Shown: one piece after another, positions 3,604 to 51,901 of the stretch
Position numbering within the stretch: the first letter of the stretch is position 1
Layout of the letters: each line of letters starts with the position of its first letter
Assembly (NCBI GenBank): GCA_022414725.1
Contig: CM039462.1
Span: 54,066,973-54,130,972 of the forward strand
DNA length: 64,000 nucleotides
Reading direction: 5' to 3'
DNA from: Microglena sp. YARC
Lineage: Eukaryota > Chlorophyta > Chlorophyceae > Chlamydomonadales > Chlamydomonadaceae
Made by a program: the position numbers and the translations under genes
Notes under the pieces: generated by a model
What the model was told of the DNA's origin: nothing
What the model saw: the letters and a program-made list of their open reading frames with translations, nothing else
Databases searched by the model: none

Positions 3604-3623
3604 TTCCTCCAACAGGCACCTAC

Positions 3624-4395: not shown

Positions 4396-4479
4396 CTGAA
4401 ATACCGAAAATGGGGCATGTTTAGGAGCGGGAAAAGGTGTAGGACATCACTGTTTGTTTTTGGGGCTACATGTTTTTGG

Positions 4480-5150: not shown

Positions 5151-5232
5151 CCATGCAATTTGTATGATATCATATGATGTCGCCCTCGCCTTTACTCAGC
5201 AATATATGATGTGCCGGTCCCTATTGATATGG
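5148..5232. mobile_element. MITE family 2 fragment (hAT-like, ATATCATATGAT-rich)
   Basis: Palindromic ATGATATCATATGAT DNA followed by ATATGATGTGCCGGTCCCTA, the right end of the family best seen at 41936-42108. The other end is degraded. Confidence 0.55.
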
Positions 5233-5559
5233 CAGGAGCTTACAGCGGTTTGGCTTAAACCCAACTTTGAACACCAGTTTTTGCTTGTCATACTTCGACA
5301 TTTAAAGGCTTCGACTTTTAAAGGTTTGGCAAATACATTTTAAACCCGGTCCTTTAAAAGGGTAATAGACCAAGAAAGAAAAAATACGAATTTGTATCAT
5401 CCTATCATTCCTTGCTCTCCCCATGCCCAAAATGTATCATGCGCAGTGCCATTCTACCTGGCCAATGCGCACTATCCACTGCTCAATGCTCCAACCTGCT
5501 ATCTATCATCCTGAGACATCCATTTGTATTCAATCAATCAGCGGAAAGTATGACCACTC

Positions 5560-6405: not shown

Positions 6406-6414
6406 CTACCCTAC

Positions 6415-7098: not shown

Positions 7099-7119
7099 CT
7101 GTGGGAAAGTAGAGGGATG

Positions 7120-11584: not shown

Positions 11585-14500
11585 GTCTGTCACAATTACT
11601 TCTTTAGGTTTCATGTCCTGAAAACGGTATTATGAACCATATAACAATTAGAAGACTTATCTGCACCAGTCAGCTTCACTGGAAAGCACATCATGAGCAT
11701 CGCAAGAATCGAAAAGGACCATGAGCATGGTGGCGGTTGGCCCCAGTGTAAGCAAACAGGCTGGCCCCTCAACCTCATGCCTCGTAAGAAGGCGTATTAT
11801 TTACGTATAGATGCATTGACTTATTTATCCTGTGCCTGGTGCAATTTTAGTGCTAAGAGCACCCAGGCAGATTGGAGAAGAGAACAGTGTCTTCGGGAGA
11901 TCGCCGTGTCTGTTCTGCTGTCTGATCAAACATGATCCGATTAAAAGCTATCATCATCAGCTTTCACGTGCCTGCACTGCAGGTGTGAGGATGACTTGAC
12001 ACATAAGCTGGCTGAGATTATCCGAGCAAACAACCAGCTGAAGAGGCAGGAGCAGAATGGAGCTCCGCAGCACATCATCAATGAGTTCGCCCACCTGGTG
12101 CAGTATCACATCATGACGTGAGTTTGGTTATCTGCTGTCATTTGCAGTTTGTTGATTGTTACAGTTAGTTGATTTTTGAATTTATTTGATTTTTGCAGTT
12201 GCAGTTGCAGTTTATTTTTATTTTTTTCTGCTGTCATTTGCATTGGCAGTTTATCTGCTCTATTTGCAGTTTGTGACCTGCCTGTTTGAATAAGCCTGGT
12301 GCAATATCACATAATGATGTGAGTTTGGTTATCTGCTTTCATTTGCAGATTGTGATTTGCTTTCAATTGCAGTTAGTGATCAGCTCTCATTTGCAGTTTT
12401 TATCTGCTTGTTTGACTTAGCTTGTGCCCAGTATGCTCACTTAGGGAGAACTAGACAAAATGACATTACATGTACCTGTCACAAGGGCGCCTACCTCTGA
12501 CCTTATCCTTATACCTGTCACAAGAGCCTCTACAGCCTTAACCTTCACTAATAAAACTTATGAGGAAGAGTCGTAGTGTCGTATGACATTTCGCCGATAA
12601 TCTTGGAACCAGAACAATATTGGCTACCCTATTAATGAACAACATCGCCTATATAATGGGAATGGCAACTAATATAAGTGTTTGAAAAACTAATATTATT
12701 ATAGTGTCACAATAATATTAGTTTTTCAAATAAATTCGAAATTCTGGTGAGACGGCTTGTCCGATTAATAATATTCAATATTATTTATTCACTAATATTA
12801 CATAACAAAGCTGACCCCTACCTATATAGCCTGTGTCCTCAGAACCCTTGTTGTTGCACCCACAACAGGTACATGGACAACTCTCTGCCTGGCCTTGCAC
12901 CAGCTCTTCATAAGAGCGGCAGGCCCATTAAAAGTATCAGCCAACGTCTCAAGGGCAAGGAAGGACGAGTCAGGTATGTCAATAAATACATAGTACGCCT
13001 TCTTACGAGGCATGAGGTTGAGGGGGCCAGCCCGTTTGCCGGCACTGGGGCCAACCATGGATAGTGGGTGTAGGAGGGCTGTCATTGCCTTGAGGTATGT
13101 CCGCTTATTTCCTCTTTCTTATTTTAACCAGACTCCTGCCCTAGAGACCACTGTTTATTTGTTGCTGCTACACGTAGCAGCTTCTAGGCAGCTCCCTTTC
13201 CCTGAAGTGGAGCCAATCCTGAAGCCAGCTATTGCGTCTAAAAGCTGACATGACAGGCATTCCAATGCAGCTGCCTTGTGTAGTTTGCTTGAGTGGGGTT
13301 GGGTCAATGGGGTGGGGATGATCGACTCATGGCACCTCCATATAAAGTTGCAGGGTTATTGTGCAAGTGCAACAATGGAATTTGGGCTTCAGCAACTCAC
13401 TCCAATTTCAGCAAGCATATTCCAATTGCTGAGTCGATTCCCTCCTTGGCTGTCTGCGCCATTCTGAAGTCTGTCACCTCCATCCTGCACAGGGGTTACT
13501 GAATGGGCAAGCGTGTTTAGTGTGGTAGAATAGGGTGGGTGGGCTGGAGTGTGTGTGTGTGGTGAGGGTGCTCAACACATAGCACCTCCTTCCCTCCTTG
13601 GCTTTCTCTGCCATACTGAAGCCTGTTGCCTCCATCCTGAAGTCTGTCACCTCCATCCTGCACAGGGGTGACTTAATGGGCAAGCGTGTTTAGTGTGGTA
13701 GAATAGGGTGGGTGGGCTGGAGTGTGTGTGTGTGGTGAGGGTGCTCAACACATAGCACCTCCTTCCCTCCTTGGCTTTCTCTGCCGTACTGAAGCCTGTC
13801 TCCTCCATACTGAAGTCTGTCACCTCCATCCTGCACACGGGTGACTTAATGGGCAAGCGTGTTGAGCAAGTGTTTAGTGTGGTAGAATGGGGTGGGTGGG
13901 TGGGTTTTTGTGTGTGTGTGGGTGGATTTGGGGGGGGCTTAACACGTATCACGTCCTTCCCTCCTCGGCCTTCTCTGCCATACTGAAGCCTGTCACCTCC
14001 ATTCTGCGCAGGGGTAACTTGATGGGCAAGCGTGTTGACTTCTCAGCACGTACAGTCATCACCGGAGATCCCAACCTCGGTATCGATGAGCTAGGTGTCC
14101 CTTGGTCCATCGCGCTGAATCTTACCTTCCCTGAGACCACCACTGCCTTCAACATTGAGTGGTGAGTTAGACCACTTGCCCCACCATTGCTGATATATTT
14201 TTGCTTAACACTGTTTGTGATGGAATTGATGAGCTAGCTGGCCCATGGTCCATCGCTCTCAATCTCACCTTCCCTGAGACCACAATGGCCTTCAAAATTG
14301 AATGGTGAGTCATGATTTTATTGAAAGGATTCTCCCCCCAGGAGACGGGTCTCAAACCAGTGCCACTGAGGATTCAGAAAGAAAGGCGGAGCAATTCCTG
14401 TATTTTGGCGCTCCCCCAGAACCCCAGGCTCTGTGCTTGCCCCTCCGCCATATAATGGCTACGCTGGAATGAGGCTGACATAAGTAGCTACTCAACCTGG

Positions 14501-17500
14501 CCTACAGAAAGCTCGAAAAACAAATACTGCCCAACCAACACTGTCAGGATGCAGAAGTTGGTTGACACCCACCCACCACTCACCCACCCCTCCACTCTCA
14601 AACACCCGCAAACTAGCCCACCACCACTCACCACCCACCGCTCTCAAAACACCCACTAAGTACCCCTCCTACCACCCACCACTCACAAACCCACTCATAA
14701 AATACACCACCCACCACTCAAAAACCAACCCACAAACTGCCCCACCCACAAACTACCCCACCCACAATGATGACAGGTTGCAGAAGTTGGTGGACAACGG
14801 CCCCCACCCACCCCCTGGTGAAACTGGGGCTAAGTTCATCATCCGCGAGGATGGACGCCGTATCAACCTGACCTTCATGAAAGCGGGTGCTGACAAGAGG
14901 CTTGAAATTGGAGATAAGGTGGGGAATATAGGGAATTGGTGAGGGGGAGGTGGGGGAGGCGATGGAGTGTGTGTGTGTGTGTGTGGGTGGGGTGGGGGGG
15001 TGGGGGGGGGGCAGAGGGAGAAGGGGGAAGATGGGGAGTAGAAGGAGGTGAAGGAAAAAAAGGTGCTGGCTAGAGGCTTAAAATTTGAGACAAGGAGAAG
15101 AGACGCGTGTGTACCTTAGTATGTGGACTTCAAAACTGTTTGCAATTGGAGAAGGGTGGTGGGGTAGGAACGGAAGGAGGAGTGGTTAAGGTTGGGGGGT
15201 GTAATGATTGTGGGAAGAGTTTGGATTGGGAGGAGGGGGGGGTAGGGGGGGGGTAGGTGAGTAGGTGGGGGGTTTGGTGGCTCCCCTCAACACTCACAAA
15301 CCCACCCACTAACTGCCCCACCACCCACCACCACCACCCACCCTCCTACACTGACCCACACACCCTACCACCCGCGCATGTTTGAGCGCCACATGGTGAA
15401 TGCAGATTGGAGTATCTCCAACCGACAGCTCTCCTTTCAAAAGCTTGTGCATAAGTTGAGGCACCCACCCACCAACGCACCCCCCTCCCCTCCCCCACAC
15501 ACACGCTCACACGCAAACACGCACAATCTGTAACTCACACTACCGGTATTCACACCCCACCTTTACCCACCTCCCACAGGTTGAGCGCCACATGGTGAAT
15601 GGAGATTGGATTCTCTTCAACCGACAGCCCTCCTTGCATAAGATGTCCATGATGGGGCATAAGGTCAAGATCCTGCCCTACTCCACGTTCAGGTGATTTA
15701 TGCTGATTTATATTTCCTTCGAGAAAATATTATGGCATTTCTGAAACTGTCTGTGAACTCTCCGTACTGTGCTGATTTTGATGCTGATTTTTCATTGGCT
15801 ATTAAAGTAGCATGTTGGCCTTCCTCTGCAGGCTGATCCTGTCTGAAACCTCTCAGTACAATGCTGTTTAGGACGCTGATTGTGCTGATTAACCATTCCC
15901 TTTCGAAATAACAATTTGTCCTTCCTTGCATGCTGAACCGGTCTGTGACCTCTCCGTACAATGCTGATTTTGATGCTGATTTATTCTGATTTTGCATTCC
16001 CTTTCAAAATATCATGTTGGCCTTCCTTTGCAGGCTGAACTTGTCTGTGACCACACCGTACAATGCTGATTTCGATGGTGATGAGATGAACTTGCACATT
16101 GCCCAGACACACGAGACCCGAGCTGAGATGCGGGATATCATGAGTGTGAGTATGCCACTTTTTTGCCTTGTACACAAAAGTCAAGCTGAGATGCGGGAAG
16201 TCGATGATTAGTTATTATACCACTTTTATGCCTTATGTGCTTTTTGCTTCACAAGCTTCTTGTACACTGCCTGTATCCCTCTACCCTATGTTTGGGGCTA
16301 CCCTTGGACACAGCTTTTTCCAGCTACGACCAACAGCTTCTAGGACCTCCCTGAACTGTCTATTGAGCCAAAATGCATTCGACAACAAAATGTAATGCAC
16401 AATGATAATGGTAATGTAATGTATCTCTTTATCGGTCACCTGCAGGTCCCAACGGAAACATTGTAATCAGGTCAGGCTAACAAGCCCCGTTCATTGTATT
16501 GTGCAAAGACTCATACTGCTTTGGGCTGCACGGCAAGTTTCTGTTTCTGCCAGTTGTAATGATATCAATAACTCGGTCTTTGGGATCAACATCCTATGAT
16601 TAATGACAGTCCCTTTATATGGTGGATGAGATTCCCCTATGTAACTGGACCTAGACTTGACAAGGGGGCCTACAAGCAGTCTGGGCCGAACTTATATTTG
16701 TACACGATTCCTGGACGGTAGAAATGCACGGGCTTCTACCTCGACCTCAGCGGGAATTTCATGATTGACAGCTTGACCAACCACTGCGACCGTGCACCTA
16801 TCGAGTCATCTGTTTACAAAGTAATGATAACGCCTGGTGCAGTTTTTTTTGTTTCTAACCATGAAAGTGGGTTTCTTCTAAGCTTAATGGTTTTAGGCCT
16901 CCCATCAAGAGACGAGCGTATCAGTGCTTTCTGTAAGCTTCTTCATAGCTTTTCAGAGGCCATCGAGGCAAACCAAAAATGGTTAACTTTTTTATCAGCG
17001 ATAATTTCGCTAAAACGGGGTCAAAACTAAGCGATCGCTATATTATAGCGGAAATAAAAATCCCTGGCCTGGTGGGCTGGTTGACCACACTCACTGTATC
17101 ACTGAGCCATTCGTCGAAGAACATAATCCATCTGTTACAGACGTCACGAGAACGCCTTCCCGCTATGAACTGCTGCCCCGACTTAGCCAATGTTAACCAG
17201 CTGACTGAAATATTGTTTAGCAGTTACAACTATCGCTATAAATATCACTATTATCATATAAATAGTAATACTAACATCATCCCTTTTCTTCGCTGGGTCG
17301 CATAACAGGTTCCACCATTATTATGCACACCAATTCTGTGTATTCTTTGTAATGGTAATGATCATCATCATCATCCATCAATCATCATCATCATCATCAT
17401 TCATCACCTCTTCTGTGTGTCCCACAGGTTGATGACAAAGCGCGACACCTTCATTTTTAGAACAGACCTGATGAATGGAATCCTCAATGTGCATTGATGG

Positions 17501-20500
17501 ATGGGAACGGCTCTTCAGTGCCCATGCCCTGCCCAGATCCNNNNNNNNNNNNNNNNNNNNNNNNNNNNNNNNNNNNNNNNNNNNNNNNNNNNNNNNNNNN
17601 NNNNNNNNNNNNNNNNNNNNNNNNNNNNNNNNNNNNNNNNNNNNNNNNNNNNNNNNNNNNNNNNNNNNNNNNNNNNNNNNNNNNNNNNNNNNNNNNNNNN
17701 NNNNNNNNNNNNNNNNNNNNNNNNNNNNNNNNNNNNNNNNNNNNNNNNNNNNNNNNNNNNNNNNNNNNNNNNNNNNNNNNNNNNNNNNNNNNNNNNNNNN
17801 NNNNNNNNNNNNNNNNNNNNNNNNNNNNNNNNNNNNNNNNNNNNNNNNNNNNNNNNNNNNNNNNNNNNNNNNNNNNNNNNNNNNNNNNNNNNNNNNNNNN
17901 NNNNNNNNNNNNNNNNNNNNNNNNNNNNNNNNNNNNNNNNNNNNNNNNNNNNNNNNNNNNNNNNNNNNNNNNNNNNNNNNNNNNNNNNNNNNNNNNNNNN
18001 NNNNNNNNNNNNNNNNNNNNNNNNNNNNNNNNNNNNNNNNNNNNNNNNNNNNNNNNNNNNNNNNNNNNNNNNNNNNNNNNNNNNNNNNNNNNNNNNNNNN
18101 NNNNNNNNNNNNNNNNNNNNNNNNNNNNNNNNNNNNNNNNNNNNNNNNNNNNNNNNNNNNNNNNNNNNNNNNNNNNNNNNNNNNNNNNNNNNNNNNNNNN
18201 NNNNNNNNNNNNNNNNNNNNNNNNNNNNNNNNNNNNNNNNNNNNNNNNNNNNNNNNNNNNNNNNNNNNNNNNNNNNNNNNNNNNNNNNNNNNNNNNNNNN
18301 NNNNNNNNNNNNNNNNNNNNNNNNNNNNNNNNNNNNNNNNNNNNNNNNNNNNNNNNNNNNNNNNNNNNNNNNNNNNNNNNNNNNNNNNNNNNNNNNNNNN
18401 NNNNNNNNNNNNNNNNNNNNNNNNNNNNNNNNNNNNNNNNNNNNNNNNNNNNNNNNNNNNNNNNNNNNNNNNNNNNNNNNNNNNNNNNNNNNNNNNNNNN
18501 NNNNNNNNNNNNNNNNNNNNNNNNNNNNNNNNNNNNNNNNGGTGTGTGAGGTGGCGGTGGGGGCTCGTCCACATCACCTGAATGGAGCTGTGGCCCCTGA
18601 TGGCACACGACTGGCTGAAACTAACTACACACGGCCGTGAACAATGTTTGCATAGCATGGTGTGATGTGGCGCCCGGGGGGTGGGGGGTGCCTCCGTCCC
18701 ACTCATGCTAGCGCTAATGAGCGCTGGCCCTGGATGCACACGACTGTGACACTCTCTCATTTTATCGTGCAACAATGTGTTGCATAGCATGGTGTGGGTG
18801 TGTGTGTGTTGTCACTGTTGTGCGGGGCGTTTGTGGGGGCGAGGGGGGGCTTGTCCCACATCACTCTGAATGGAGCTGCGCCGCTGATGGCACTACGACT
18901 GCTTGATTCTAACTTACAACACTGATCACGTGAAATCCAACTTTTTGCATGCATGGGTGTGGGTGGTCGGTGTGTTGTGGGGGAGGGGGCTCGTCCACAT
19001 CACCTGAAGGACGCTGGTGCCCTGATGGCACACGTTGCTCGATCTAATAACACACGGGCCTCCTGTGAACACTCCTCTCGCATTACATGCTGTGCGGTGT
19101 GGGGGTGGGGGGGGGGGGGGGCTCCGTCCACATCACCTGCAATGGAGTCTGGGCCCTATAGGCACTACGACTGCTTGAACTCCTAAACTAGCAACACGGC
19201 GGCTGAACAATGTTGCATACATGGTGTGAGGTGCTGAGCATCATGTCTTGTGGGGGGGGGGGGCTCGTCCACATCACCTTGAATGGAGCTGGGCCCTGAT
19301 GGCCACACTGACTGCTTGATCTAACTACACACGAACTCACATCGCCGTGAACAAATGTTGGCATAGCATGGTGTGGCGCCCCTTAAAACTCCTGTGAATG
19401 TGTGTGTGTGTTGGGTGGGGGGGGGCGGGCTGTGTCCACATCACCTGAATGGCAGCTGGCCCTGATGCGAGCGACGACTCTGCTGATCCTCACACATAAA
19501 AACGGGCCTATCTGAACAATGTTGCATTTCAGCAATGTGCTTACCATGTGTGGGAATCCCTATGGAGGGGGGGGGGGGAAGGGGGGAAAGCCGTGCGTCC
19601 ACATCACCTGACTCTGGGTTCCCTGCATGGCAACAACGACTGACTGATTCTTAACTTATTACACGGGTGAACAATGTTGCATAGCATTGTGTGGGTGTGG
19701 TGGGGGGGGGGGGGGGGGCTCTGTTCCACAATCACGCTGACATGGAGAGCTGGGTCTATCCTGATGGCAACGACTGACTGATCTTAACTACACACGTAGT
19801 AACAATTGTTGCATAGCATGCATGTGGGTGTGGGGGGGGGGGGTGAGGGGGGGGGCTCGTCCACATCACCTAATGGAGCTGGGCCCTGATGGCACACGGT
19901 TGACTTGCTGATCTAACTTAACACTACGGGTGAACAAGTTGCATAGCATGGTGTGGGGGGGGGGGGGGGGGGGGGGCGCTCGTCCACATAGGAACCTGGC
20001 ATCTGATGGCTACACACTGGCTGATCTAACTACACACGGCCGTGAACAATGTTGCCATAGCATGGTGTGGGGGGGGGGGGGGGCCCCGGGGGGGCTGGGG
20101 CGCTCGTCCACATCACCAATGAATGGAGCTGCGGCCTTCGATGGCACACGACAATGATCCCTAACTAAACACGGTTCGCCACAATTTGCCATAGCATGCT
20201 CTGTGGGTGTGTGTGTGTTGTGGGGGGGGGAGGGGGGGGGGCTGTGTCACATCACCTGAATGGGTCTGCCCTCATGGCCACGACTGCTGGAATTCTAACC
20301 TACACACGGCCAAGTGAAACAATGTATGCATAGCGGTGTGCCGGTTGGGTGGTGGGCGGGGGGGGGGGCGCTGGGGGCTCGTCCAACATCACCTAATGGA
20401 GCTGTGCCCCTGATGGCACACGACTGCTGATCTAACTACACACGGTGAACAATTTGCATAGCATTGGTGTGGAGGGGGGGGGGGGGGGAGCGGCCGGGTG

Positions 20501-23500
20501 GCTCGTCCACATTCACCTGAAATGGAGCTGGGCCCTGCATGGACACGACTGCTGATCTTAGACTACACCGGCAGTGAACAATGTCATTAGCCATGGTGTG
20601 GGTGTGTTGGTGTTGTGTGTGGGGCGGGAAGGGCTCGTCCACATTCGACCTGAATTGGAGCTGGGCTTCCTGATGCACAACGACTGCTGCATCTAACTTA
20701 CACACGGTGCCGCATATCCCGGGTGAACAAATGTTGCATAGCATGGTTGTGGGTGTAGGGGCGGGGGGGGATCGAGGGGGGGGGGGGCTCGTCCAACATC
20801 ACCTGAATGAGCTGGGCGCCTGATGGCACACGACTTGCTGACTGGTAACTACACACGCGGCTCGTGAACAATGTTGCATAGCATTGTGCTGTGTATAATG
20901 GTGGGGGGGGGGGGGAGGGGGGCTTGTCTAATAATTCGCTCGAATGGTACGGCTGCCCTTCCTGGAGTGTGGCGAGCGACGGCACTGGCTGATCTAATAC
21001 ACACGGCGTGAACAATGTTGCACTCCTCTCTCGTGAGGTGTTGTGTGTGTGTGGGGGGGCTCGTCCACACTCAACATTGTTAATTGAGCGTGGGCCCTAT
21101 GGCACACGACTGCTAGCATGCTAAGCGGTTACCACACGGGAGCGGAATCTGTGAACAATGTTGCATAGAAAAAGAGAGGGCCATCTCCTCGGTGCTCGAG
21201 TGTGGCCTGTGTGGGGGGGGGGGCAGGGCTCGTCCACACTCCACCTGAATGGAGCTAGGGCACAATGATGCGCACACCGACTTGCTGCATCTAAACTACA
21301 CAACGGAGCCCGTAAACGAACTTTTCCATAGCATGTGTGCGGTGGGTGTGAGGGGGGGGGGGCGTGTGGGGCTCCGTCCATCATCACTCCTAATATTGGC
21401 CCTGATGGCACCACGACTGACCTAACTCTCAACTACAACCTCGGGTCCTGTGAACAAATGTGCATAGCATGTGTGGGAGGGAGGGGGGGGAGGGGGGGGG
21501 CTCGTCCACATTCACCTGAATGGAGTGGGCCCTGGAGGCACACGCTGCCCTGATCTAACTACACACGTGTGAAACAATTTGCATAGCATGGTGTGGGTGT
21601 GGGGGGGGGGGGGGGGGGGGGGCTCGTCCACATCACCTAATGGAGCTGGCCCTGATGGCACACGACTGCCTTGATCTAATCTACACTACGGGTGTCACAA
21701 TGTGCATAAGCATGGTGTGGTGTGGGTGTGTGTGTTCATAAATCGTACTGTGGGGCGGGGGGCTCGTCCACATCACCTGAATGGAGCTGGCCCTGATGGC
21801 ACCATACCTGATCTAACTACACACGGTGGCGGCCGTGAATGTTGCCCCCCGTTGTGCCCATAGCAATGGTGTGGGTAGTGGGGGGGCGGGATGGGGGGGG
21901 GGGCTCTTCACATCACTTGAATGGAGCTTGTGGCCCTGTGCTACTACAGGACTGGGTATGCGTGAGAGCGTTACACACGGCTCAGCGTCACACAAATCCT
22001 CTTGCCATAGCAATGTGTGGGTGTGGGCGGGGGGCGGGGGGGGGGCTCCCGTCCATCATGACCCTTGAATGGAGCTGGCCCTGATGGGCAACACCAGTGG
22101 ACTGCCTGACTCTCCTAACTTACACACGGCCGGGTGAAAATCAATGTGCTATAGCATGGTGTGAGGTGTGTGGTGTTGAGGGGGGGGGGGGAGGGCTCGT
22201 CACATCACTCTTAAGGAGCTGTCCGCCCTTATGTGCCACACGACTGCCCTGACTCCACCTCCCACCCTCTGTGAACACTGTTGGCCATAAAGTATTTTTG
22301 TGGGAGTGTGATTTATGTGTGGGGGGAGGGGGAGGGACAGGGCGGGAGGGCGGGCTTCGTCCACACATCCAGGCTCGAACTTGGAGCTGGGCCCTGACTG
22401 GACACGACTGCTGATTCTACTCCACGCAGTGAACAATGTTGCATAGCATTAGGTTGGGTTGTGGGTGTGCTCGGGGGGGAGTGCTGTCTCATCTATCACC
22501 TGAATGGAGATGGCCCCTGAATTGGGCACACGACTGCTGATCTAACTTACACACGGAAGCTGTGATATCCAATGTTGCATAGGGCATGAGTGTGGTGGTG
22601 GTGTGTGTGTGGGGCGGGGGGGCTCGTCCACTATCACCTGACATGGAGCTGGGCCCTGATGGCACACGACTGCTGATCTAACTACACACGGATGCTGTGA
22701 ACAATGCTTGCATAGCATGGGTGTGCGGCTGTGGGTTTGGGGGGGGGGGGAGGGGGCTCGTCCACATAATGATGGAGCTGTGCCCTGATTGAGCACACGG
22801 AACTGCTGAATCTATTACTTACACACCGCTCGGCCCGCGTGAACAATTGTTGCCAATAGCATGGTGTGGGTGTTGTGTTTGGGGGGGGGGGGCTCGTCCA
22901 CATCACCTGATGAGCTGGGGCCCTGACTCGCACACTGTACTGTCTGAATTCTAACAACACGGCCGTGAACAAGTGTTGCAATAGCATGGTGTGGTGTGGT
23001 GGGGGGGGGAGGGGGGTGGGCTTCTGGTCCACATCACTTCTGAAATGGAGCTGGCCCTCGATGCACACGACTGCTGATACTATACTTATCACACGGCGTG
23101 AACAATGTTGCATAGCATGGTGTGGGTTGTGGGGGGGGCGGGGCGCAGGCTCGTCCACATCACTTGACATGGAGCTGTGGCCCTGATGGCACACGACTGC
23201 TGATCTAACTTACAACACGGACCCGTTGAACAATTTGCTTAGCATCGGGTGTGCGGTGTGTGCGTGTGTGTGGGGGGGGGGTGCGGGGGGGGGGTTTGTC
23301 CACAGCACCTGAATGGAGCTGCTGCGCCCCTGATGGCACACGACTGCTGATCTAACTACACACGGTGTGGAACAATGCGTTGCCTTAGCATGGTTGGGTG
23401 TGTGTGTGTTGTGTGTTGGTGGGGGGGGGGGGGGGGGCTTCATCACCTGAATGGAGCTGGGGCCCTGATGGCACACGACTGCTGATCTAACTACACACGT

Positions 23501-26500
23501 AGTGAACAATGTTGCATAGGCATGGTGTGGTGTGTGTGTGGTGTGATGCTGGGGGGGGGGGGGGCTCGTCCACATCAACCTGAATGGAGCTGGTCCCTGA
23601 TTGCACACGTACTGCTGTATCATAACATACACACGGCTTGAACAATGTTTCATAGCATGGTGTGGGTGTGGGGGGGGGGGGGGGGGCGGCTCGTGCGCGA
23701 CATCACCTGAATGAAAGCTGGGCCCTGATTCACACGACTGCTATCTAACTACACACGCTGGTGACTTGGTTGTGCGAGTGTGGTGGGGGGGGGGGCGGGG
23801 GGGGCTCGGTCACAGATCACCTGACTCGGAGCTGGGCCCTGATGGCACAACGACTGCCTGATCTAACTACCACGACGGATGAACAATGTTGTATGGTATG
23901 TGGGTGATGTGTGTTGTGTTGTGTGTGGCGGGTGGGGGGGGGGGCGCGGCTTGTCCACATCACGCTGAATGGAGCTGGGCTCCTGATGGCACACGACTCT
24001 GATTCTAACTACACACGGCTGTGAACAATGTTGCTTAAGCATGGTGTGGTGTGTGTGTGTGGGGGGCGGGGGGGGCCCGAGGGGGGCTTTGTCCACATCA
24101 CCTGAATGGAGCTGGGCCCTGACTGGCACTCCTTGATCTAACTACAACGTCACACTTGTGAAACAAATGTTGCATAGCCATGTGTGGGTGTAGGGTGTGT
24201 CTGTGGGGGGGGGAGGGCTCGTCACACATGCGAGCGCTGAAATGGAAGCTGGGCCCTGGATGGCACACCGACTGCTGATCTAACTTACACACGGCATAGT
24301 GAACCACATGTTGCATAGATGGTGTGGCTGTGTTTGTGGGGGGGGGGTCGGGGGGCTCGTCCACATCACCTGAATGGAGCTGGGCCCTGATGGCGCACCA
24401 CGACTGCCTGCATCTAACTACGATCGCAACGGCGTGAAACAATGTTTTGCATAGCATGGTGTGGGTGTGTGTGTGTTGTGTGGGGGGGGTGGGGGGCTCG
24501 TCCCCATGATCACCTGAATGGAGCTGGCCCTGATGGACACACGGACTGTGATCTAACTACACACGGTCGTGAAACAATTGTTGCATAGCATGGATGTGGG
24601 TTGTGGGGGGGGGGGGGGAGGGGGCTCGTCCACATCACCCTGAATGAGGCTGGCCCTGATAGCACACGACTGCTGAATCTTAACTACACACGGCAAGTGA
24701 ACAATGTTGCATAGCTATGGTGTCGGTGTGGGGGGGGGGGGGGGGGGTCGTTCCACCATCACGTGAATGGAGCTGGGGCCCTGATGGCACATTCGACTGC
24801 TGATCTAACACACACTGGCTCTGGATCACCTAAGACTCTATCAACTCCTCTCATATTAGATGAGACGTGATCCGGTCAGACCCCATGCACGCACCTCGGA
24901 ACTCCCCCACGACCATACTCGTGAACAAATGTTGCATAGCATGCGTGTGGTTGTCCTGTGAGTGTGTGGGTGGGGGGGGGGGGATGGGGGCTTGTCACAT
25001 CCACCTGAATGGAGCTGGGCCCTGATGGCACACGACTGCTGATCTAACTACACACGGTTTGCGTGAACTAATTGTTGGCAATAGCATGGTGTGGGTGTGG
25101 GTGTTGTGTTGCTGTGGGGGGGGGGGGGCTTCGTCCATCATCACCTTGAAATGGAGCTGGCCCTGATGAAGCACCACGACTGCTGATCTAACTACACGAC
25201 CGGGGGGGGGGCCGGGGGGGGAGGGGGGGGGAGGGGGGGGGGGGTGGGGGGTGAAACAATGTTGCATAGCATGGTTGTGGGTGTGTGTGTTGTGTGTGGG
25301 TGGGGGGGAGGGGGGGGCGGGGCTTGGTCCACATCACCTGAATGGAGCTTGGCCCTGATTGGCACACGACTGGCTGATCTTAAACTACACCACGGCAGTG
25401 AAACAATGTTGCATAGCATGGTGTGCGCGTGTGCGGTGTGTTGGGGGGGGGGCTCGTCCACATCACCCTTGGATATGGTGGGCCCTGATGGCACACCGAA
25501 CTGCTGATCTAACTACACCACGTCTAGTGAACAATGTTGCATTAGTCATGGTTGGTGTGGGTGTGTGGCGGGGAGGGGGGGCTCGCTCCACAATCACCTG
25601 AATGGAGCTGGGCCCTGATGGCACACGGGACTGCTGATCTAACTACACACGGGGAACAAATGTTGCTAGCATGGTGTGGGTGTGTGTGTGTGTGGGGGGG
25701 GGGGGGGGTGCTTGTCCACATCACCTGAATGGAGCTGGGCCCCTGATTGCACACGACTGCCTTGATCATAACTACACACGGGTGAAACAATGTTGCATAG
25801 GCATGGTGTGGGTCCCTGGAGTGTGTGGGGGGGGGGGGGGGCTCGGTCCACATCACTGAATGGAGCTTGGGCCCTCCGATGGCACACGACTGCCTGATCT
25901 AACTACACACGGAGTGAACAATGTTGCATTAGCTATGGCTGTGGGTTGTGGGGGGGGGGGGGGGGGCTCATCCACATCACCTGAATGGAGATAGAGGCCT
26001 GATGGCACACTAGTATATATATATATCTATCGGCCATACAACTGTTGAATAGTCATGGTGTGGGTGTGTCTGTGGGGGGGGGGGGGCTCCGTCCCCACAT
26101 CACCTGCTCTCTCTCACTACTGCTGATCTAAACTAAACACGGGTGAAACAATGTGCTTAAGCATGGTGTGGGGTGTGTGTGTGTGGGGGGGGGGGGGGGG
26201 GGGGGGGGGCTTGTCCACATCACCTGGAATGGAAGCTGGCCCTGGATGGACCACACGACTGTCCTTGATCTAACTACACACGCGTGAACAATGTTGATAG
26301 CATGGTGTGGTGGGTGTTGGGGGAGGGGGGGGGGCTTCGTCCACGATCACCTTGAAATGGAGCTGGGCCCCTGATGCACACGACTGCCTGATCTAAACTA
26401 CAAAACGTGTGAACAATGTTGCCATAGCATTGTGTGGTGTGGGGGGGTGGGGGGGGGGGGGGGCTCGTCCACATACCTGAATGGAGCTGGGCCTGACTGG

Positions 26501-29500
26501 CACACGACTGCCTGATCTAACTACACACGGTCGTAGACACAATGTGCATTAGCATGCGTGTGGGTGTGGGTGTGTTGGGGGGGGGGGGGGCTCCGTCCAC
26601 ATCACCTGAATGGAGACTGGGCCCTGATGGCCACACGACTGCTGATCCCACACTGACACCACGGGTGAACAATGTTGCATAGCATGTGTGGGTTGTGTGG
26701 GGGGGAGGGGGGGGGGGGGGGCTCGTCCACATCACCTGAATGGAGCTGGGCCCTGATGGCACACGACTGCTGATCTAACTACACACGGGTGAACAATGTT
26801 GCATAGCATGTTTGGGTGTGCCTGCGTGTGTGTGTGGGGGGGGGGGGGGGGGGCTTTCCTAAACATCACCTGAATGGATGGTGTTGCGGTGTGGGTTGGG
26901 GGGGGGGGGGGGGCCTGATTGGGGCACACGACTGCTGATCTAATCGGTGTGGGTGGTGGGGGGGGGGGGGGGGCTCGGCTACATCACACGGCCCGTGAAC
27001 AATGTGCATAGCATGGTGTGTGTGTGGGTGTGTGGGGGGGGGGGGGGGGCTCGTCCACATCACCTGAATGGAGCTGGGCCCTGATGGACACGACCTGCTG
27101 GACGAACACGGCGTGAACCATGCGTGCATATGTTGGTGTGTGGGCGTGTGGGTGCTCGTGGGGCGTGGCGCGGGGGCTGTAGCGCCGCTGGGGCGCGGCG
27201 GCCCCGCGGGGCCGCCCTCCACATGCGGGCGGGGGGGCTCGTGCCACATCACTGATATGGAGCTGGGCCCTGATGGCACACGACTGCTGAATCTACACTA
27301 CACACGGGTGAACAATGGTTGCATAGCATGGTGTGTTGTGGGTGGGATCGTGGGGCGGGGGGGGGGGGGGGCGCCTTGTCCACATGCATGAATGGAGCTG
27401 GGCCTGATGGCACACGATGCTGACTCTATACTACACAACTGGTGAACAAATTTTAGCATGGGTTGGTGGGTGTGGGTGTGTGGGGGGGGGGCGGGGTCGT
27501 CCACATCACCTTGGAATGAGCTGGGCTGATGGACAATCGACTCTGATGTCTAACTACACCCGGTGAACAATGTTGCATAGCATGGTGTGGGTGGGGTGGT
27601 TCGGGCGAGGGGGGCTCGTCCACAGCACGCTGAATGAGCTTGGGCCCTGATGGCACACGACTGCCTGATCTAACTGGCCACGCGGGGCGGGGGGGGGGTG
27701 GGTGGGGGGGCGGTCGGGGGGGAGGGGGGGGGGGCTCGTCACATCACTGAATGGAGCTGGGCCTGTGATGGCGCAACGACTGCGTGATCTAACACACACG
27801 GGATGTACCATTGTGCATAGCATGGTGGGGTGTGGGTGCTGGGTGTGGGGGGGGGGGGGGGGCTCTCACAAGTTATCAGACCTGAAGAGCCGTGCCTGAT
27901 GCCAACAGCGACTGTATGCTAACTAGATCACTGGGTGATCAATTGTTGATAAGCATGGTGTGGTGTGGGTGTCGGTGGGTGTGGGGGGGGGGGCTCTAGA
28001 GTCCACATCACTGAATGGGGGAGCTGGGCCCTGATGGCATTACGACTGCTGATGCTAACTTACACCAAGGTACGGGTGAACAATGTTGCATAGATGGTGT
28101 GGGGTGTGGGTGTGGGTGTGTGGGGGGGGGGGGGGGGGGGGGCTCCACATCACCTGAATTGGAGCTGGGGCTGATGGCACACCGACGATGCTGATCTAAC
28201 TACACACGGGCCATGTGAACAATGTTGCATAGCATGGTGTTGGGGTGTGGGTGCTCGCGGCTTTTGTGTGTGTGGGGTTTGGTGGGATGTTTGCGTGTTT
28301 TGTGATAGGTGTGGGGGGGGGGGGGGGGGGGCTGGGTATCCACATCACCTGAATGGAGCTGGGGGCCCTGATGGCACACGACTGCTGATCTAACTACAGG
28401 GTGGAACAATGTTGCATGAGGCGGTCGGTGGGGTGGGTGTGGTGCGGTGGTGGGATGTGGGGGGGGGGGGGGGCGCAACATCACCTGAATGGAGGCTGGC
28501 CCTGCATATGCACACGACTGCTGATCTAATACACACGAATAGTGAAAATGTTGGCGGTAAGTTAGGTTTTGTTTAGGCGGACCATACAGACCATTTTTGT
28601 ATGGGACCACAAGAGCCAATGAGAGCTGCAACAACCAGAATATGATTAAAGCTGGTTTGTCAATCTGTGTCATAATATGTGTGATCCATTTGAGGTCCTT
28701 AGGGGAAACCCTCCCCCTCATCGCTTGCTTGGTAGGTTACAGTGACCTGATGGCTGATGCAACACGTCTTGCGCATTTGTATCAACCCACATGACGCCAT
28801 GCACATTGGTATCAACTCACACCGACAAAACCCCACACCCCCCAAACGTCATGCGCATTGGTATCTTCCCACACCCACCCTCCACACCACTTAATGCACA
28901 TTGGTATCACCCCTCACCCCAGCCAACCCTCCTCTCCTTGCTTGCTTGCTTGCAGGTCACAATTACCTGCTGGCTGATGCAACACGGCATGAGCATTGGT
29001 ATCGCCGACACAGTTGCTGATGACGGAACCATGACAACTATTAACGACATCATTGAGAAGGTGAGGTGTAGGGTTTGTTTGTTATGTAGTTTCCGTTTAG
29101 GGCTAAAGCAACGCAATCTTTGTCCTTGTTTTAGCTAGGTTGGTTTACGGTAGTGTGTTTTTTGTTTGTTTTAGGTGTTGTGTGAATTGTAATGTATTTG
29201 TTCAGTCCAGGCAGGGTGGACACCTAGGCTAAATGGGATTTCCCAAGCCTCGAAGACAGGAAATGTTGGTTCAACAAACAAAGCACCAGTGAACTGAACC
29301 CCAACATATTGCCAACAGAATTTCATTTCAGGCACATTATTTCATACAATGTGCATTCCGATTGGTTTTTACTGAGGAGGTGAAGAAGCGATTGCCAGTA
29401 CCAGGCTCAAATCTATTTCATTGATCAACAACATAAGGCCCTCTCTCACGACCTTCAAACCTCGCCTCCTCTGTCGATCACGACAGGCTAAGGAGGAGGT

Positions 29501-32500
29501 GAAGAAATTGATCGGCCAGTAGTACCAGGCTGGTGAGCTTTTGAGGCCATGCCTGGCGCTCAATTGTCTGAGGCCTTGAGAACCGTGTGAACGCCGTCCT
29601 GAATAAGGCCAGAGATGACGCCGGAAAGAGGGCCCAGGGCAGTTTGACCCTGGAGAACAATATCATTAAGATGTCATCAGCAGGTAACAGCGCACCCAAC
29701 CCCACACCACTACATGCGCATTGGTATCATCCCACACCCCACGCACCCCACACCCACGCCCATTCGCATTGGTATCTATCCCACACGTCCAGCCCAACCC
29801 ATACCCCACACCACGCCATGCGCATTGGTATCACCCCCACAACCACCCATCCCCACGCCATGCGCATTGGCTCATCCACCACCCCACCCATCCCCACGCC
29901 ACGCCATGCGCATTGGTAATCATCCCGTCACTCCCACCCAAAACCCCACGCACGCCATGCACATCGGTACTTCGATCCCAACCCACCCAATGTAATATCC
30001 CTAAGATGTCATCAGCAGGTAACAAGTCAAATAGCCCCCCTACGTATTTTTAGAGGCTGGCATATCATGTGATTTTGACCAAAGGCAAGTATGATATCAT
30101 ACAAACTGCATCATATATCTTGCGTTTGTGTGTATAAATGGTAACTTTGCCTAGTCAGATCTGCTGGCATTCATATGTGTGACCATGATATTATATTATC
30201 TCATTGTTGCGACGAATGATGCCTACATATTTGTTCAAATTACAGACCATGCAGAATGCCTCGATGAGTGTCCTACCACCACGAGCTTCACAATTCACCC
30301 AAGTTAACACAGACAAACACTTTTAACCTTCCGTCACTGTCAATAACTGTATTACCTCCAGCTGATGAGTGTCTAATGCCGAAAGTTTGTCACTGCTCTC
30401 TCTGTAATCATACGTTCCTTTCTCTCCTCTCAATGTTCATTTCTCTTCTTAATAAATCAACTTATATCACTAAGTACCCACTCGCCTGCAAATTCGAAAC
30501 TGTACCCCCATGCCCCCCCCCCCCCCCCCCATACACACACACACAACACACATCATTCACATACACACACATACACACACGCAGACACAATATCATTTGT
30601 CTTGCAGGGGAAATATTGCATTGCAATGAAGCAACCAAAATATGGACTGCAGCTACTGCAGGGCTCTCAGAGTATGAGCTGAACCGTGGGGAATGAACAC
30701 CCACCCACCACCAATCACACGCCCCTAAGAGTTGTTTGCAGGGAAAAGGTTGCATTACAGCTAGCAAATGTGGACTTCAGCTACTGCAGAGCAGTCAAAG
30801 AGTATGAGCAGCCAACCAACCCTCACCTGGCCAACACACCAACCAACCAAACCCACTAACCCCCCCCCCCCCCCCCCCCCCCCCCCATTGCAGGAAGCAA
30901 GGGCTCCTTCATTAACATCTCGCAGATGATGGGATGCGTGGGACAGCAGAACGTTGAGGGGCGACGTATTCCCTTTGGTTTCCAACAGCGAACGCTGCCC
31001 CACTTCACCAAAGATGACTACGGCCCTGAGTCAAGAGGTTCGTAGAGAACTCATCTTACTTGCGACAAGGCCTCACTCCTCAGGTGCGTCACTTATGTGT
31101 TCATACTTCCAGGGCTCTAACTTGCTACTAGTAGCACTTTGAAGGCCACTGAAGAGTCCATCGGTGCTATGTTAAAGACTCGTAAATCACTCATACTTTG
31201 CGAGGCCTTGCCTCTCAGGTGCGTCACTTTTTTGTGATATACTTTTCAGGCCTTAAAAGCTATTCTAGTAGCGCTCTCAGAAGGCTACTTGGAACACCAT
31301 AGTGCTATTTAGTTCCAATAATATCGGGCTATATAATCCGTATATTATATCGAAATAGATGTTGTACAGATATACCATATATCGTACAGTTTTTGTGTAT
31401 ATATTCTCCGCTAATGTTCTATAGCCATGATATCAGACTTGTCAACCCTGTTATGTAACAGTCTAGTGGGTACACCACAAATAGGCTAAAATCAACTTAC
31501 TTGACCGACCATGACAGGAGGGGCGTAATGAAGAAACGCTGATGGGGAAATGAAACCAAACTATCGTTCTACCGACGGGGGGCCCTGAGTTTGTGCCAAA
31601 ATGAATGTTTAATTAAAATTATTAATTAAAAAACGAATTTTGTTTTCCGTTACAGGAGTTCATTCTTTCACCGCCATGGGTGGTCGTGAGGGTCTCATCG
31701 ATACGGCTGTGAAGACATCACATAAGTACCGGATACATCTCATCCAGCGCAGATTGTGAAGGCCATGGAGGATCTGATCGTTCACTAGACTCGGCACCGT
31801 CGCACCGCCCATTGGCTCGTTTCACACAGTTCTTATATGGCGAGGATGGCATGGATGGTGTACGCATTGAGGGTCAGAGCTTTGACCATCTCAAGCTAGA
31901 TGTAAGTTCATGCACTGGGAATATGTTTTGTGTGTGTGTTGTGGGGGGGGGGGGGGGGGGGGGGGGGAGGGGGGGGGGCATTGGCTCCAGTTACTAAGTT
32001 ATTCTGTATGGTGGGAATGATGGTATGGACGGGTGCCTTTGCTGTCGAGGGTGCAGCTTTGACGACATTCTCAAGCTAGATGTAAGTCATCCATTGGGAA
32101 TCAGTTGGCATCATGTCAAGCTATTAAATCACCGCAATCATCATCACCATCACCACCACTCCTTTAGAAGGGTAGGCTGAGGGGCAGAAGTTCATACACA
32201 AAATTGGTGTTGCGTTGCTTGGGGAAGAGTTTATTTGTGGTGTGACGGGGGGGGGGGGGGGGGATAGTCACATCATCGTGATTCATCATCACCACCAACC
32301 ACTCCATAGGAGGGCAAGCTGGGGGCAGAAGTACATGTACCAACTGGATGTTGGGTTGATGTTAGGGAAGAGTGCAGTTGTGTGGTGAGGGGGTGGGGGG
32401 GGGGGGGGATAGTCACTTCATCTTGATCGAACATCAACATCATCACCACCACCCATCATCACGACTCCACAGGAGGGTAAGCTGAGGCACAAGGTCTGTC

Positions 32501-35500
32501 AACCGCCATCATCACCACCTTTCACCACCTTTTACCACCACCACCGATACAAATCACCACTTTCCATCCTCAGAGAGTGAGCTGAGACAGTACAGTTCCT
32601 GTTCACCGCCATCATCAATCACGCCACTCATCACCACCACTCATCACCACCTTCACCACCACCACCATTCATCACCACTCCACAGGAGGGTAAGCTGACG
32701 GCACAGAAGTTCATGTACCAGTCTGGATGTGGGCGCTGACTCCGTGTGACTGGCTCAGTCCTGGACTCTGGAGTTCCTGCGCACTGACGTGGAATGCTCA
32801 CCAGCCTCGAGCACATTGACCGAGGGAATACCAGGGCTATCATGGATGACTTAGCCGTACTTCAGGGGCCGCTGAGTGTTGACAGCAGGAGATGCAAGCA
32901 TCAACCTTCCCGTCAATATTAGACGCCTGTTGTGGAATGCGCAGGCCAAGTTTAATTGCAAATGGACCCACAGTGCGATGAAACATCTGCCTGGACACTA
33001 TTTTGTTTTTCTAGATTTTGAGGATTGCCTTGTGGTGTCCTCATATATATATATTAACGTCACAGCACGTATGTCAGCTTTTGTATTTAACACCTATTTG
33101 TATGTCAAGATTTTGAGAGGGTTGCTTGCATCCGTGTGTGTATGTACACCCCACCGCACGTTTTTCAGGTTTGTATTTAACTTCTGTTTTGTATTCTCAG
33201 TTGTTAAGTGCTCGGTGTGTAGTTTCATCAACATTCAAAGCATCACTCTTCTCTTTCATATAAATATTTGAGGGGGCGGTGAGGTGTGGGAAGGCATGGG
33301 GTTGAAGATGTAGCTGGGGCAATATATTGACCACCCTCAAATGTAGCAGAGTTAGACCCACTGTTACACTGGTTACTACCTGAGGATGGTGCTGAGGCAG
33401 ATTATACCGACAGGGTGAGGCAATATCCAACTGAGCTTCGGCCCACAACTCCAAATTGGACTGAGGCCTTCTCCCGCCCCACGCTACCTCCCTGCGCATC
33501 GAGATACCCGTGACATGGGCTGTCACCTTCAGGTTGATTTTTTAGTGGGCTTGCAGAGTGTATGGTGTAATAAGTATCGACATACCTGTTAGCCTGCTCT
33601 CCGACCTATGTTTCAGATGTGTCGCAAACCCCTCAACACCCCTTGCAACCCCATCACACACACCCCTAACCCCCACATCCTGCCCAAATCCACTACACCA
33701 CCACGCCACCACACCCCTCCCTCCCCAACCCACACCCCCCCTTCCCCACACTTCTCACACCCCCCACACCCAACACACACCCTCACCGCCAACACCCCTC
33801 CAGCCTGTTTCACCACCTGGACCCAGTGTAGTGTCAAGAAGGTCCGCGAGCTGCTTAGCCCACTTGCATGTGGTAGCTGCACTGGATGAACTGTCTAAAG
33901 AGGCCCAGCCGCAAACTCCACCATTTCATGTCATGGGCCCTAGTTAGGAAACCTACCTTTTCATCGAAGCGCCTACTCAAAGAGTACAAGCCAACCAAGA
34001 TGCCTTCGACTGGATTTAGGTAAGAACTTTTTTCACGCCAGATTGGTAACAATAGCGATCGGTACATATATATAAAATACTGTAGGTACGTTTGTTTAGG
34101 CAGGTACTGAATTACTGTCGCCATTCCACGTTGCATGGCGACGCATCTGGGCTCCGATAAAGTAGTCAGAAGATGCCCTGAGTCGCTCAATTTGTTGCAT
34201 GAACAATAAGTACATACAAAAACTTAGGTGGGGTTATAGGCTCCGCTTTTAACCATGCACTAGGCGCCACCCTGGTGAGTGCATTGGATCCATTGCCACC
34301 TTCAAAATTCAAACTCCTTTACCGTTGAATGCGGAAAGCATAGGCACCATGTCGATTGCAAGACCGCTTCTAAAACATTATCTATTTGGCCGGTCCCTAT
34401 CTCAAGGTGAGTGAGGCTCGCTTCAATCAGGCACACGCTGGCGAATGCATTGGATCCATTGCCACCAAAATCAAACTCCATTAACCATAGGCAGCATGTC
34501 TTATTGCAAGCCGCTTCTAAAAAACATATCTATTATGCGGTCCCTATCTCAGGTAGGTGGAGGCCGCTTTCAATCAGGCACACGCTGGCGAATGCATTGG
34601 ATCCATTGCCACCTTCAAAATCAAACTCCATTACCTAGGGCACCATGTCTTATTGCAAAGCCGCTCTAAAACATACATTCGATTTGGCCTCACTTATCCC
34701 AGGTGAGGTGGAGGCTCGCTTCAACCAGGCTCAGGCACACGCTGGCGAATGCATTGGATCCATTGCACTTCAAAATCAAACTCCATTTACCTAGGCACCA
34801 TGTCGTTATTGCAGCCGCTTCTAAACATTACACTATTTGCCGGTCACTAATCCCCAGGTGAGGGAGGCTCGCCTTCAACCAGGCTCAGGGCACTACGCTG
34901 GCGAATGGCATGATCCATTGCCGCCCAGTCGCAGGAAGAGCCCACCACGCAGATGCACGCTGAACACATTCCATTTCGCTCGGTGTGTCCGCCAAGAACG
35001 TCACGCTGGGTGCCGCGTTCGCTTGACCGAGATCACACCTTGCAAGAACATCAAAACGCCGTCCTGAGTTGTACCTTACAGAGGAGAATGCCAAAGGACA
35101 AGACGCCGCCAAAGACATCCAGATGTGTGTTGAACACCTGCCTGAAGAATACACAAGGTAGACTGAGATCTGGTTTACGATCCAGTGCGACGCCCACGGG
35201 CCCGAGAACACGGTCGGGACGACGCCGTGCATTGGTAGCTTGCATTCTTTGAATGCTTCCAGAACGACCGAACTAGTATGTTAACTAGGATGAGCCCTTG
35301 CGTTGCTGCGTATTGAGCTCAACAGCGTGAGCCCAATGTTTAGACCACACCACCCCACACCCCGCCCCAGCACCACACACAGATGCCCCCCCCACACAAC
35401 ACACACACATTCAGTACCTAACTATGCCCCACTCTCAGAGAAATATTTATGGACAAAACGCTGGTAGTTGAACCAAGGTAGCCCAGAACCCTTTTCAACC

Positions 35501-38500
35501 CCCACATTCCCCCCACACACCCACCTTCCTCTCTTACACTCTGCCCCCAAAAGCACTATCACACCACCACCACACGCCAACCCCACCCACCGCTTCTCGG
35601 ACCCCCCCCCCCACACACACACCACTTCAGCAACTGACCCGATGCCCCCCTCCTATCTAAGAGAAATGATTCTGGACAAGAAGCTGACCGGGGAGGTAGC
35701 CCCCCCCCCCCCCCTCCCTCCACACACACAAACCTCCTCACTCCCACCGCCCCACAAACAAGGAGCTGACCGGGAAGGTAGCCCCCCCCCCCCCCCCCCC
35801 CCCCTCCCCTCCACCGACACACAACCTCCTCACTCCACCTGCCCCACAAACAATCTTCTCACACACACTCTCCTCGGCACCCGCTCCCCCCCATCCCACC
35901 CCCACCCACACTCAGCGACGCCCAACTTGCCCCCCTCCGCTCAGAGAAATGATTCTGGACAAGAAGCTGACTGTGAGATAAGGTAGCCCACGCGCACATT
36001 GAAGAGTATTGAGACTTCCTGAACGTCATGTTCTCAGATGAAGAACGCGCAACAGCTGTGCGCGCTCCGTATCATGGAGGACGCTGGGTCTAAAGAGAAG
36101 ACGCGGGCAGGAATGACGCTTTTGGCGTTACCATGTATACCTTCTTCGTTATCCTCTACATTTTGTTTTACTGTCGGATAGAGAACGAGCAACAAGCTGT
36201 TTGCCTCATTATCATGGATGCTGGGTGCGCAAGGCAAAAAAAAAAAAAAAATGACGCGTGCTAGGTGAAGACCTTTTAACATCCCCATTATCGACTTCGT
36301 TCTCATTCATACCTTCCTCTTGCCTTCTCTAACTGTTATTTCTCTAATCCAGAAGTTTCCACTAGTACTCGCTGCAATGGAAAGAAGCCCAACCACCACA
36401 CACACACCTCCACCCATGACGCAAACACCATGACCCACCAGCCCACCAAACATGACCAACACCGCACAACACTCACCATGACCACAACACCATGCCCCCC
36501 CACCACCACCACCACCACACACACACACACACCATGAACCCCCACACACCACCACGCACCCCTCACCATGAACCCCACCCCCACCCACCCCACCCCACAC
36601 ACCCACCATTCACATGACCACCCACCCCCCAGGTGGACTGATGGACACCCTCAAGCGATGGAGACCGCCTACTTGCGAAGACCTCAAGCTGCCAAGGTGT
36701 CGAGAACATCGCGCAAGGTGTTCATCCACCTTGCCAAGCCACTCCGCCAGATGTCACTTTAGTATAAACCTCAGACCATCCACCTCTCCTCTGACTGCCC
36801 ACCCACCCCGCTAGGTGATGACGACACCCTCAAGCGACTGGAGACGGCTACTTGAAAGAGACTGCAAGCTGCAGGTGTTTGAGAACATGCCGCAAGGTGT
36901 TCATCCGCCAAGCCAAGCGCACTCGAGTGGGAGATCTCGGAGGGTGGCTGCTCGCTTCAAGCAGGATGAAGAGTGGCTCTTGGATAACTGAGGGTTGGTG
37001 AATCTTATGGGGTGGGTCTAGAAGGTCTCATTTTCTAGGGTCTGGCGTATTCATGAGATGTTATTAGTCACTTGAGGAGTGTGTCAGTCACTGGGGGGTA
37101 GGTGTGTGTGATGGTGGGGGGGAGGGGGGGGGGGGGGGGGGGGCTGAAGAGTGTGAAGTGTGGCTGAAAGATGAGAATGGCTTTTGGATACTGAGGGTGT
37201 GAATCTCATGGACGTGGGTCTAGAGGCTCGTATCTAGGGTCTGGTTTAATCATATGAATGTTGACAGAAGCGCAGTAGGATATCATGTCATAACAGATCC
37301 CCCTATACACTACCAAAAACATGTTAAACCCCCTCATCATAATCAGGTGTTGGCCTTTTACACAAGAAAATTTCCCCTTACCTTCACATATAACCATGGC
37401 GAACCCTCATCTTATCAGGTGTTGGTTTTTCACACTAGACATCCTCCCCTTGAACTAAAATCATAGCCGCGAACCGACCCCTCACTTAACAGGTGTTGGC
37501 CTTCCCTGTTGGGTCGACACACACGTACCATCAGCAACCTTAATCACAGTCTGATGAGAAGATCATTGAGGTGCTGGGTATTGAGAGGCCGTGAGCAGCA
37601 GGAACGCTCGATGAGTCTGTGAAGAGTTGAGGAATGTGATTGAGTTTGACGGTAAGCCTGTTACTTATTATTTTCTCATATTCTGTTGTTGTCCTGCTTT
37701 TCCACTACATCTACACTCTCATTATCACCTTCATCTACGCTTGGACCAGCTCATCATCACTCACATTCCCACCTCATTCCATGCACTCAGTCCACCTCAT
37801 CATCACTAGCATTCCATGATTATCACCCTCATCATTGCTCACATCACTTTGACATCCAATGGACTGTAATCATTCAAATCGTTGCTTGCATCACCGCGCC
37901 TCCCTCATACAAGTTCTCAGAAAGGGTCTAATCACCCTCATCATTGCTCGCATCACCCTCACCGACTTCCTGCCCACCACCCACTCCTCATACACCTCAC
38001 CCTGCCCACACACACACCCTCCTCATCCACCTGCCCACACACAGATGACATCTCGCTGCCCATGCACCTCGTCCCTTGCAGGCTCTAAGTCAACTTCAGG
38101 CATTTGCATTCTTGTGGATGCCATGACTGCAACTCACTCACGTACTAATTAACTCACTCACTCACTCAACTTGCAGGCTCCTACGTCAACTTCAGGCATT
38201 TGGCCATTCTGTGCGATGCCATGACTGCACGAGGCCATCTCATGGCACGCACGCCATGGAATCAAACCGAACGGCAACGGCCCCCTGGCTCAGTGTAGCT
38301 TTGAAGAGACGTGGACATCCTGCTGAGGGCCGCAGGGGGTTGTGTGGCGTCTGAGCGTGATAACATGACTGGCGTGAGTGAGAACATCATGCTGGGGCAG
38401 CTGTGCCCTCTGGGCACAGGCTGCTTCGACCTCCTCCTTAATGAGGAGGCTTTGGCAGATGCGTTCGATGTGCAGGTAAGGTTCACCCCAGTCCACACAC

Positions 38501-50551: not shown

Positions 50552-50601
50552 GCATTAACCCAGTTAAGAGGAATCCCATACCAAGAACTGAATTGTTGCA
50601 C

Positions 50602-51836: not shown

Positions 51837-51901
51837 GAGGGAGGCATGGTCTGAGGCAAACTGGATATGGGTGAGGGTGTTAGGATGGTTATGGCATGTT
51901 T

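Follow-up and report, generated by a model that had tools for sequence, protein, structure and literature searches.

A 64,000-bp stretch of the genome of the green alga Microglena sp. YARC (GenBank assembly GCA_022414725.1, CM039462.1), here called the window, carries an RPB1 gene that contains a tandem array of ~10 kb, whose unit includes a damaged copy of the 3' end of one of the gene's own exons. We consider it likely that this array began as a short tandem duplication across the 5' splice site of the exon and that the differences now seen between its units are mostly read error. This array represents the extreme case within a wider pattern and is not a one-off, because other exon edges of RPB1 and of a second gene in the window are duplicated alike. 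The window lies at 54.07-54.13 Mb on a scaffold of 194.9 Mb, in an assembly of 568 Mb and 2390 contigs.

The array and the origin of its unit

The initial annotation had described a tandem array of ~10 kb at 18541..28560, and an array was indeed present there. It begins directly after an assembly gap, and the start of the contig falls inside it:

18542..28560, + strand: tandem array of ~77 units, each with a G run, the 3' part of an RPB1 exon with TGA and TAA, GTGAAC, an intron head and a GT-rich tract

By wraparound alignment the array was resolved into ~77 units (78 segments, the first of them partial) with a consensus of 125 bp and a mean spacing of ~130 bp, which replaces the earlier estimate of 80-90 units of 110-120 bp. 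All units are arranged head-to-tail in one orientation and at a single place, as in a minisatellite or tandem repeat. The coding part of the consensus reads, in-frame, CTC GTC CAC ATC ACC TGA ATG GAG CTG GGC CCT GAT GGC ACA CGA CTG CTG ATC TAA and is followed 3' by GTGAAC, GT-rich DNA and a G run, which is the make-up that had been claimed for the unit. The A of the TGA was found in 68/77 units; it was deleted in 8/77 and replaced by C in 1/77, and G occurred in this column in 0/77. The T of the second in-frame stop, TAA, is kept in 71/77 units. In counts of exact matches, CACCTGAATGG occurred 23 times and CACCTGGATGG 0 times, and the single unit at 26221 that reads CACCTGGAATGG owes its TGG to an extra base. 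As the TGA, together with the in-frame TAA, is common to the units, one damaged form of the exon end was amplified, as the initial annotation had proposed.

The unit consensus was compared with eight algal RPB1 proteins. The best local score was 63, whereas 300 resampled units reached 36.2 ± 3.6 with a maximum of 49, so that none of the 300 scored as high and the RPB1 similarity proposed for the unit at this place of the protein was borne out. The matched residues are 622-657 in 6/8 proteins and 563-595 in P0006; in P0001 the heptad region gave the best match. The exon that starts at 17428 corresponds to RPB1 from residue 524 onward and the exon at 28956-29060 to residue 647 onward, and the matched residues are the stretch that is missing between these two exons. 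By sequence comparison, the unit stems from the 3' end of the exon that RPB1 should have here, below called the LVH exon after the first residues of the coding part, and probably carries the donor of this exon as well. An intact LVH exon is predicted in the gap at 17541-18540, possibly together with more of the array. Since the contig starts inside the array, the true array, which measures at least ~10 kb, may exceed this length and extend into the gap. Among four relatives for which sequence was shown, GGG precedes LVH or LIH in three and GG in one, and the G run therefore likely stems from glycine codons upstream of LVH. In the alignment to P0002, similarity continues past the predicted donor (AVNN.. 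of the unit against TVVT/TVNH), a candidate coding extension.

A search of the whole assembly with the unit at the DNA level returned at least 62 matches and, among the matches listed, all lie within the RPB1 array. Introner elements are near-identical copies found in the introns of many genes. The distribution of the matches listed differs from this, and an introner-like dispersed element was rejected as a description of the unit. The same distribution bears on the possibility that the array is an assembly artefact, inflated or belonging elsewhere and misjoined to this contig. Such an origin would suit the position of the array directly beside a scaffold gap and the unpolished state of the sequence to its right. 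We nevertheless regard it as improbable: besides the search result, the RPB1 sequence in the unit corresponds precisely to the residues missing at this locus, and the last unit continues without a gap into the intron in front of the exon at 28956.

The RPB1 gene itself extends from ~9839 to 40736 on the + strand, and the closest RPB1 proteins, which include those of Chlamydomonas eustigma, Haematococcus and Dunaliella, share 63-68% identity with it across about half of the query. The following parts were recognised:

9839-9931, 10026-10295, 11208-11584, 11983-12117, 12869-12973, 14012-14161, 14777-14918, 15580-15692 and 16034-16145, + strand: RPB1 exons 1-9, from spliced alignment, frameshift-free
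17428..17540, + strand: first part of the next RPB1 exon that can be recognised (LMTKRDTF..); it lies at the contig end and is damaged or of poor sequence quality
17541..18540, no strand: assembly gap of exactly 1000 N
28956..29060, + strand: RPB1 exon after the missing LVH exon, from spliced alignment
29487..39748, + strand: downstream RPB1 exons as far as the C-terminal domain (CTD), with apparent frameshifts (counted below) and normal residue conservation
39758..40736, + strand: C-terminal heptad repeats and stop, with one apparent 1-base shift near 40440

RPB1 residues 498-556 (window 16446-17525) are not cleanly readable, and exons seem to be missing or damaged there near the contig end.

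Exon-edge copies at other splice junctions

For each junction, 100 bp around it were taken and a copy was sought within 1.5 kb on either side, with 200 resampled flanks for comparison. This covered 31 junctions from 16 of 34 exon segments of RPB1, after segments with unclear borders or within the RPB1 array had been dropped. The end of exon 12 was set to 31050 and not to 31087 as in the gene model because of a frameshift. Copies in the direction expected of exon-edge duplication were detected downstream of 8/16 donors and upstream of 10/15 acceptors, that is at 18/31 junctions in total. The z value was above 10 in 14/18 of these matches, and at least 8 bases were covered on each side of the junction in 12/18. 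Duplicated segments that hold both exon edge and intron, as in a junction-crossing duplication, were found in 12/18 cases and at both junctions (2/2) of the second gene. The copies beside RPB1 junctions include:

12295..12368, + strand: donor-edge copy downstream of the exon at 11983-12117, z 21.0
13450..14011, + strand: three acceptor-edge copies with a period of ~173 bp, upstream of the exon at 14012, z 24.0
14222..14310, + strand: donor-edge copy downstream of the exon at 14012-14161, z 15.9
15280..15463, + strand: acceptor-edge copy upstream of the exon at 15580, z 15.1
15698..16033, + strand: acceptor-edge copies upstream of the exon at 16034, z 31.9
28707..28783, + strand: decayed copy of the acceptor and 5' edge of the exon at 28956, z 20.7
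34226..34925, + strand: about four copies (147 bp) around one RPB1 exon, from junction test and repeat search
38530..38816, + strand: two donor-edge copies downstream of the exon at 38177-38475, z 28.0

Repeats of CATGCGCATTGGTATC were seen at window positions 28757-28930 and 29687-29990; they apparently stem from the edge of the exon at 28956 and recur ~1 kb downstream, past the next exon.

The second gene lies at 3565-7356 on the - strand and gave a weak match to FAST_1 (E 7e-4, below the Pfam cut-off). It contains arrays of 177-bp and ~193-bp units, in which distant copies look more decayed than near ones. By eye, four copies were counted upstream of the acceptor and at least three downstream of the donor, and in the junction test 2/2 junctions had copies in the expected direction:

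4396..5154, - strand: decayed copies upstream (in gene direction) of the acceptor edge at 4395, period 177 bp, z 55.3
5711..6414, - strand: copies downstream (in gene direction) of the donor edge at 6415, z 30.5

Differences between units and the quality of the sequence

The initial annotation had treated the array as a minisatellite, and reading the divergence of its units as minisatellite evolution is not supported. Over the core positions of the 71 complete units among the 78 segments, 11.0% of bases were inserted, 3.9% deleted and 2.85% substituted, corresponding to a ratio of indels to substitutions of 5.2; over the whole length of the array this ratio is 4.4. Insertion runs were one base long in 490/570 cases (all segments). 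Neighbouring units shared differences at lag 1 with a value of 0.99, as compared to 0.82 ± 0.15 when the order of units was shuffled (P 0.14). Older PacBio reads carry an error of 10-20% that is led by insertions. In PMC9713900, such reads are simulated at 10-20% error with a ratio of 22:45:33, the order of the error types being unstated in the passage concerned. Because of their size, their insertion bias and the lack of neighbour sharing beyond that of shuffled orders, most unit-to-unit differences are probably raw, uncorrected long-read error at a contig end, and the pattern fits this explanation in place of minisatellite evolution.

For comparison, 17 arrays including the RPB1 array were measured; for two of them, at 34341 and 55721, convergence was not reached. 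The total divergence of the RPB1 array, 23%, is the highest among the 17. In nine of the other 16 arrays, four of them in the window and five in sampled stretches of the genome, the ratio of indels to substitutions did not exceed 0.47. In our estimation it is unlikely that the array is a minisatellite of great age whose units have truly diverged through mutations that built up over time. The genome is rich in tandem repeats, as arrays with a period of at least 60 bp were found in 15/18 sampled 10-kb pieces, and 7/16 of the other arrays are likewise indel-rich; an indel variant with or without CC is, moreover, non-randomly placed along the RPB1 array. The excess of indels in the core, the predominance of single-base insertions, the neighbour sharing within the range of shuffled orders and the rank of the total divergence nevertheless speak against this explanation.

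The quality of the sequence also varies along the gene. From 9839 to 16145 there were 0 frameshifts in 1479 aligned coding bp, and nearer to the gap, at 16146-17540, one frameshift and two stops were found in 165 aligned bp. The exon at 28956-29060 is free of frameshifts, and to its right 31 apparent frameshifts and four in-frame stops were counted in 2334 aligned bp, the figure of 31 being rough because some borders of exon segments are doubtful there. Such damage would be expected if the locus were a pseudogene with a functional copy elsewhere, the frameshifts and the array then both being signs of decay. As a measure of conservation, the residue identity with Haematococcus RPB1 was scaled by that of C. 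eustigma with Haematococcus at the same columns, and codons next to frameshifts, gaps or introns were omitted; the scaled value was equal on both sides of the array, with 0.771/0.790 on the left (419 codons) and 0.707/0.728 on the right (338 codons). Poor sequencing is therefore a likelier cause than decay for the state of the right half of the gene. As the exons at 9839-16145 are also intact and the heptad repeats are open except for one base, decay of the right half is disfavoured, and we give a pseudogene a slightly smaller chance than either the artefact or the old minisatellite.

Several results weigh against a splice-site duplication blurred by read error. The value for neighbour sharing of 0.87 is higher than the 0.43 ± 0.08 obtained in a simulation of uniform error, so the differences concentrate at certain sites, and the CC variant, present in 50 units and absent from 15, follows a gradient along the array (P 0.01), which points to some real variation among units; noise hides any other shared variants. 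The ratio of indels to substitutions is 1.4-2.0 in 4/16 of the other arrays, and a further 3/16 are led by indels: L011 (14.2), L013 (almost only deletions) and the 147-bp array at 34341 (5.1), the last of which sits in the same poorly sequenced contig as the RPB1 array. An indel-rich pattern is therefore not unique to the RPB1 array. With respect to the junctions, 4/18 matches in the expected direction are weak (z 4.6-6.7), and matches in the opposite direction were found at 4/31 junctions (upstream of 3/16 donors and downstream of 1/15 acceptors), three of them in exons inside repeats (34703-34764, 37176-37213) and one with 11 exonic bases only (29683). In the clean part of the gene, 6/6 duplicated stretches overlapped an exon edge against 3.73 expected under random placement, an enrichment that did not reach significance (P 0.06). 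Targeting of duplications to splice sites is thus not shown, and tolerance is all that is suggested. Finally, the role of GTGAAC as a donor is a prediction, and the intact LVH exon is not seen, the adjoining gap being all N.

Other observations were made in the window and in the sampled pieces. L013 (scaffold C1, 20.0 Mb) consists of a 66-bp array of ~158 copies that fills nearly the whole 10-kb sample. At 46806-53743 of the window, on the - strand, a non-LTR (long terminal repeat)-retrotransposon-like element with matches to reverse transcriptase (PF00078) and RNase H (PF00075) was found. By eye, L018 and L019 (C1, 45.0 and 50.0 Mb) contain open frames resembling genes of large DNA viruses (histone H3-like, ATPase-like), possibly an endogenous giant-virus stretch.

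Proposed mechanism and relation to known systems

In the mechanism that we propose, a duplication on the donor side, comprising the 3' edge of the exon, the donor and the head of the intron, would leave its first copy on the exon and place the second in the intron. After a duplication on the acceptor side, comprising the tail of the intron, the acceptor and the 5' edge of the exon, the last copy would stay on the exon. Splicing would use the copy that is joined to the exon, and the other copy would be free to decay and multiply. Duplications crossing a junction would be tolerated because the protein is unchanged while splicing uses the joined copy, and the directions observed, downstream of donors and upstream of acceptors, fit such a mechanism. 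The LVH edge is G-rich on both sides, with the G run on one and a GT/G-rich intron head on the other, which could provide homology for unequal exchange or slippage, and in this way one junction-crossing duplication may have run away to ten kilobases.

The RPB1 array is best regarded as a variant of junction-crossing tandem duplication, which is itself already known. In the RdRp gene of potato, one tandem duplication crossing an intron-exon boundary gave rise to a new intron (PMC4974935). Both there and here the duplication inherits the parental splice signals; in potato, however, there was one event that yielded a new expressed exon and intron, whereas here many junctions are affected, the intronic copies are decayed, and one of them forms an array of ~77 units. 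In Drosophila, 5/31 cases of novel intron positions probably arose from tandem duplication within coding sequence (PMC2891723). Intron gain of the Rogers type (PMC4974935; PMC2891723) resembles the present case in that a short, direct, in-place duplication involving coding sequence is tolerated via splicing, and differs from it in that the existing introns of RPB1 appear lengthened, with no new intron position shown. With an intronic minisatellite the RPB1 array has in common that 125-bp units lie in tandem between two exons, but here the unit can be traced to the end of an exon of the host gene, and the units share a nonsense change. A search of the open literature, covering titles and the openings of abstracts, gave no report of comparable exon-edge arrays among the matches listed.

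As a warning, the RPB1 array illustrates that noisy arrays at contig ends can mimic ancient, diverged minisatellites. It is, in addition, a natural example of an essential gene in which a 5' splice site, predicted as such, is repeated many-fold. More tentatively than for the origin of this single array, and at somewhat less than even chances, we propose a ratchet in this algal lineage, by which duplications straddling splice sites might lengthen introns in gene after gene, and G-rich edges such as the LVH edge of RPB1 might run to arrays of at least 10 kb that the polymerase must transcribe for its own production. If general, this would be a simple route for the lengthening of introns, and it would leave a fossil record in which every decayed exon edge stands for a single duplication and shows which splice-site copy was retained.

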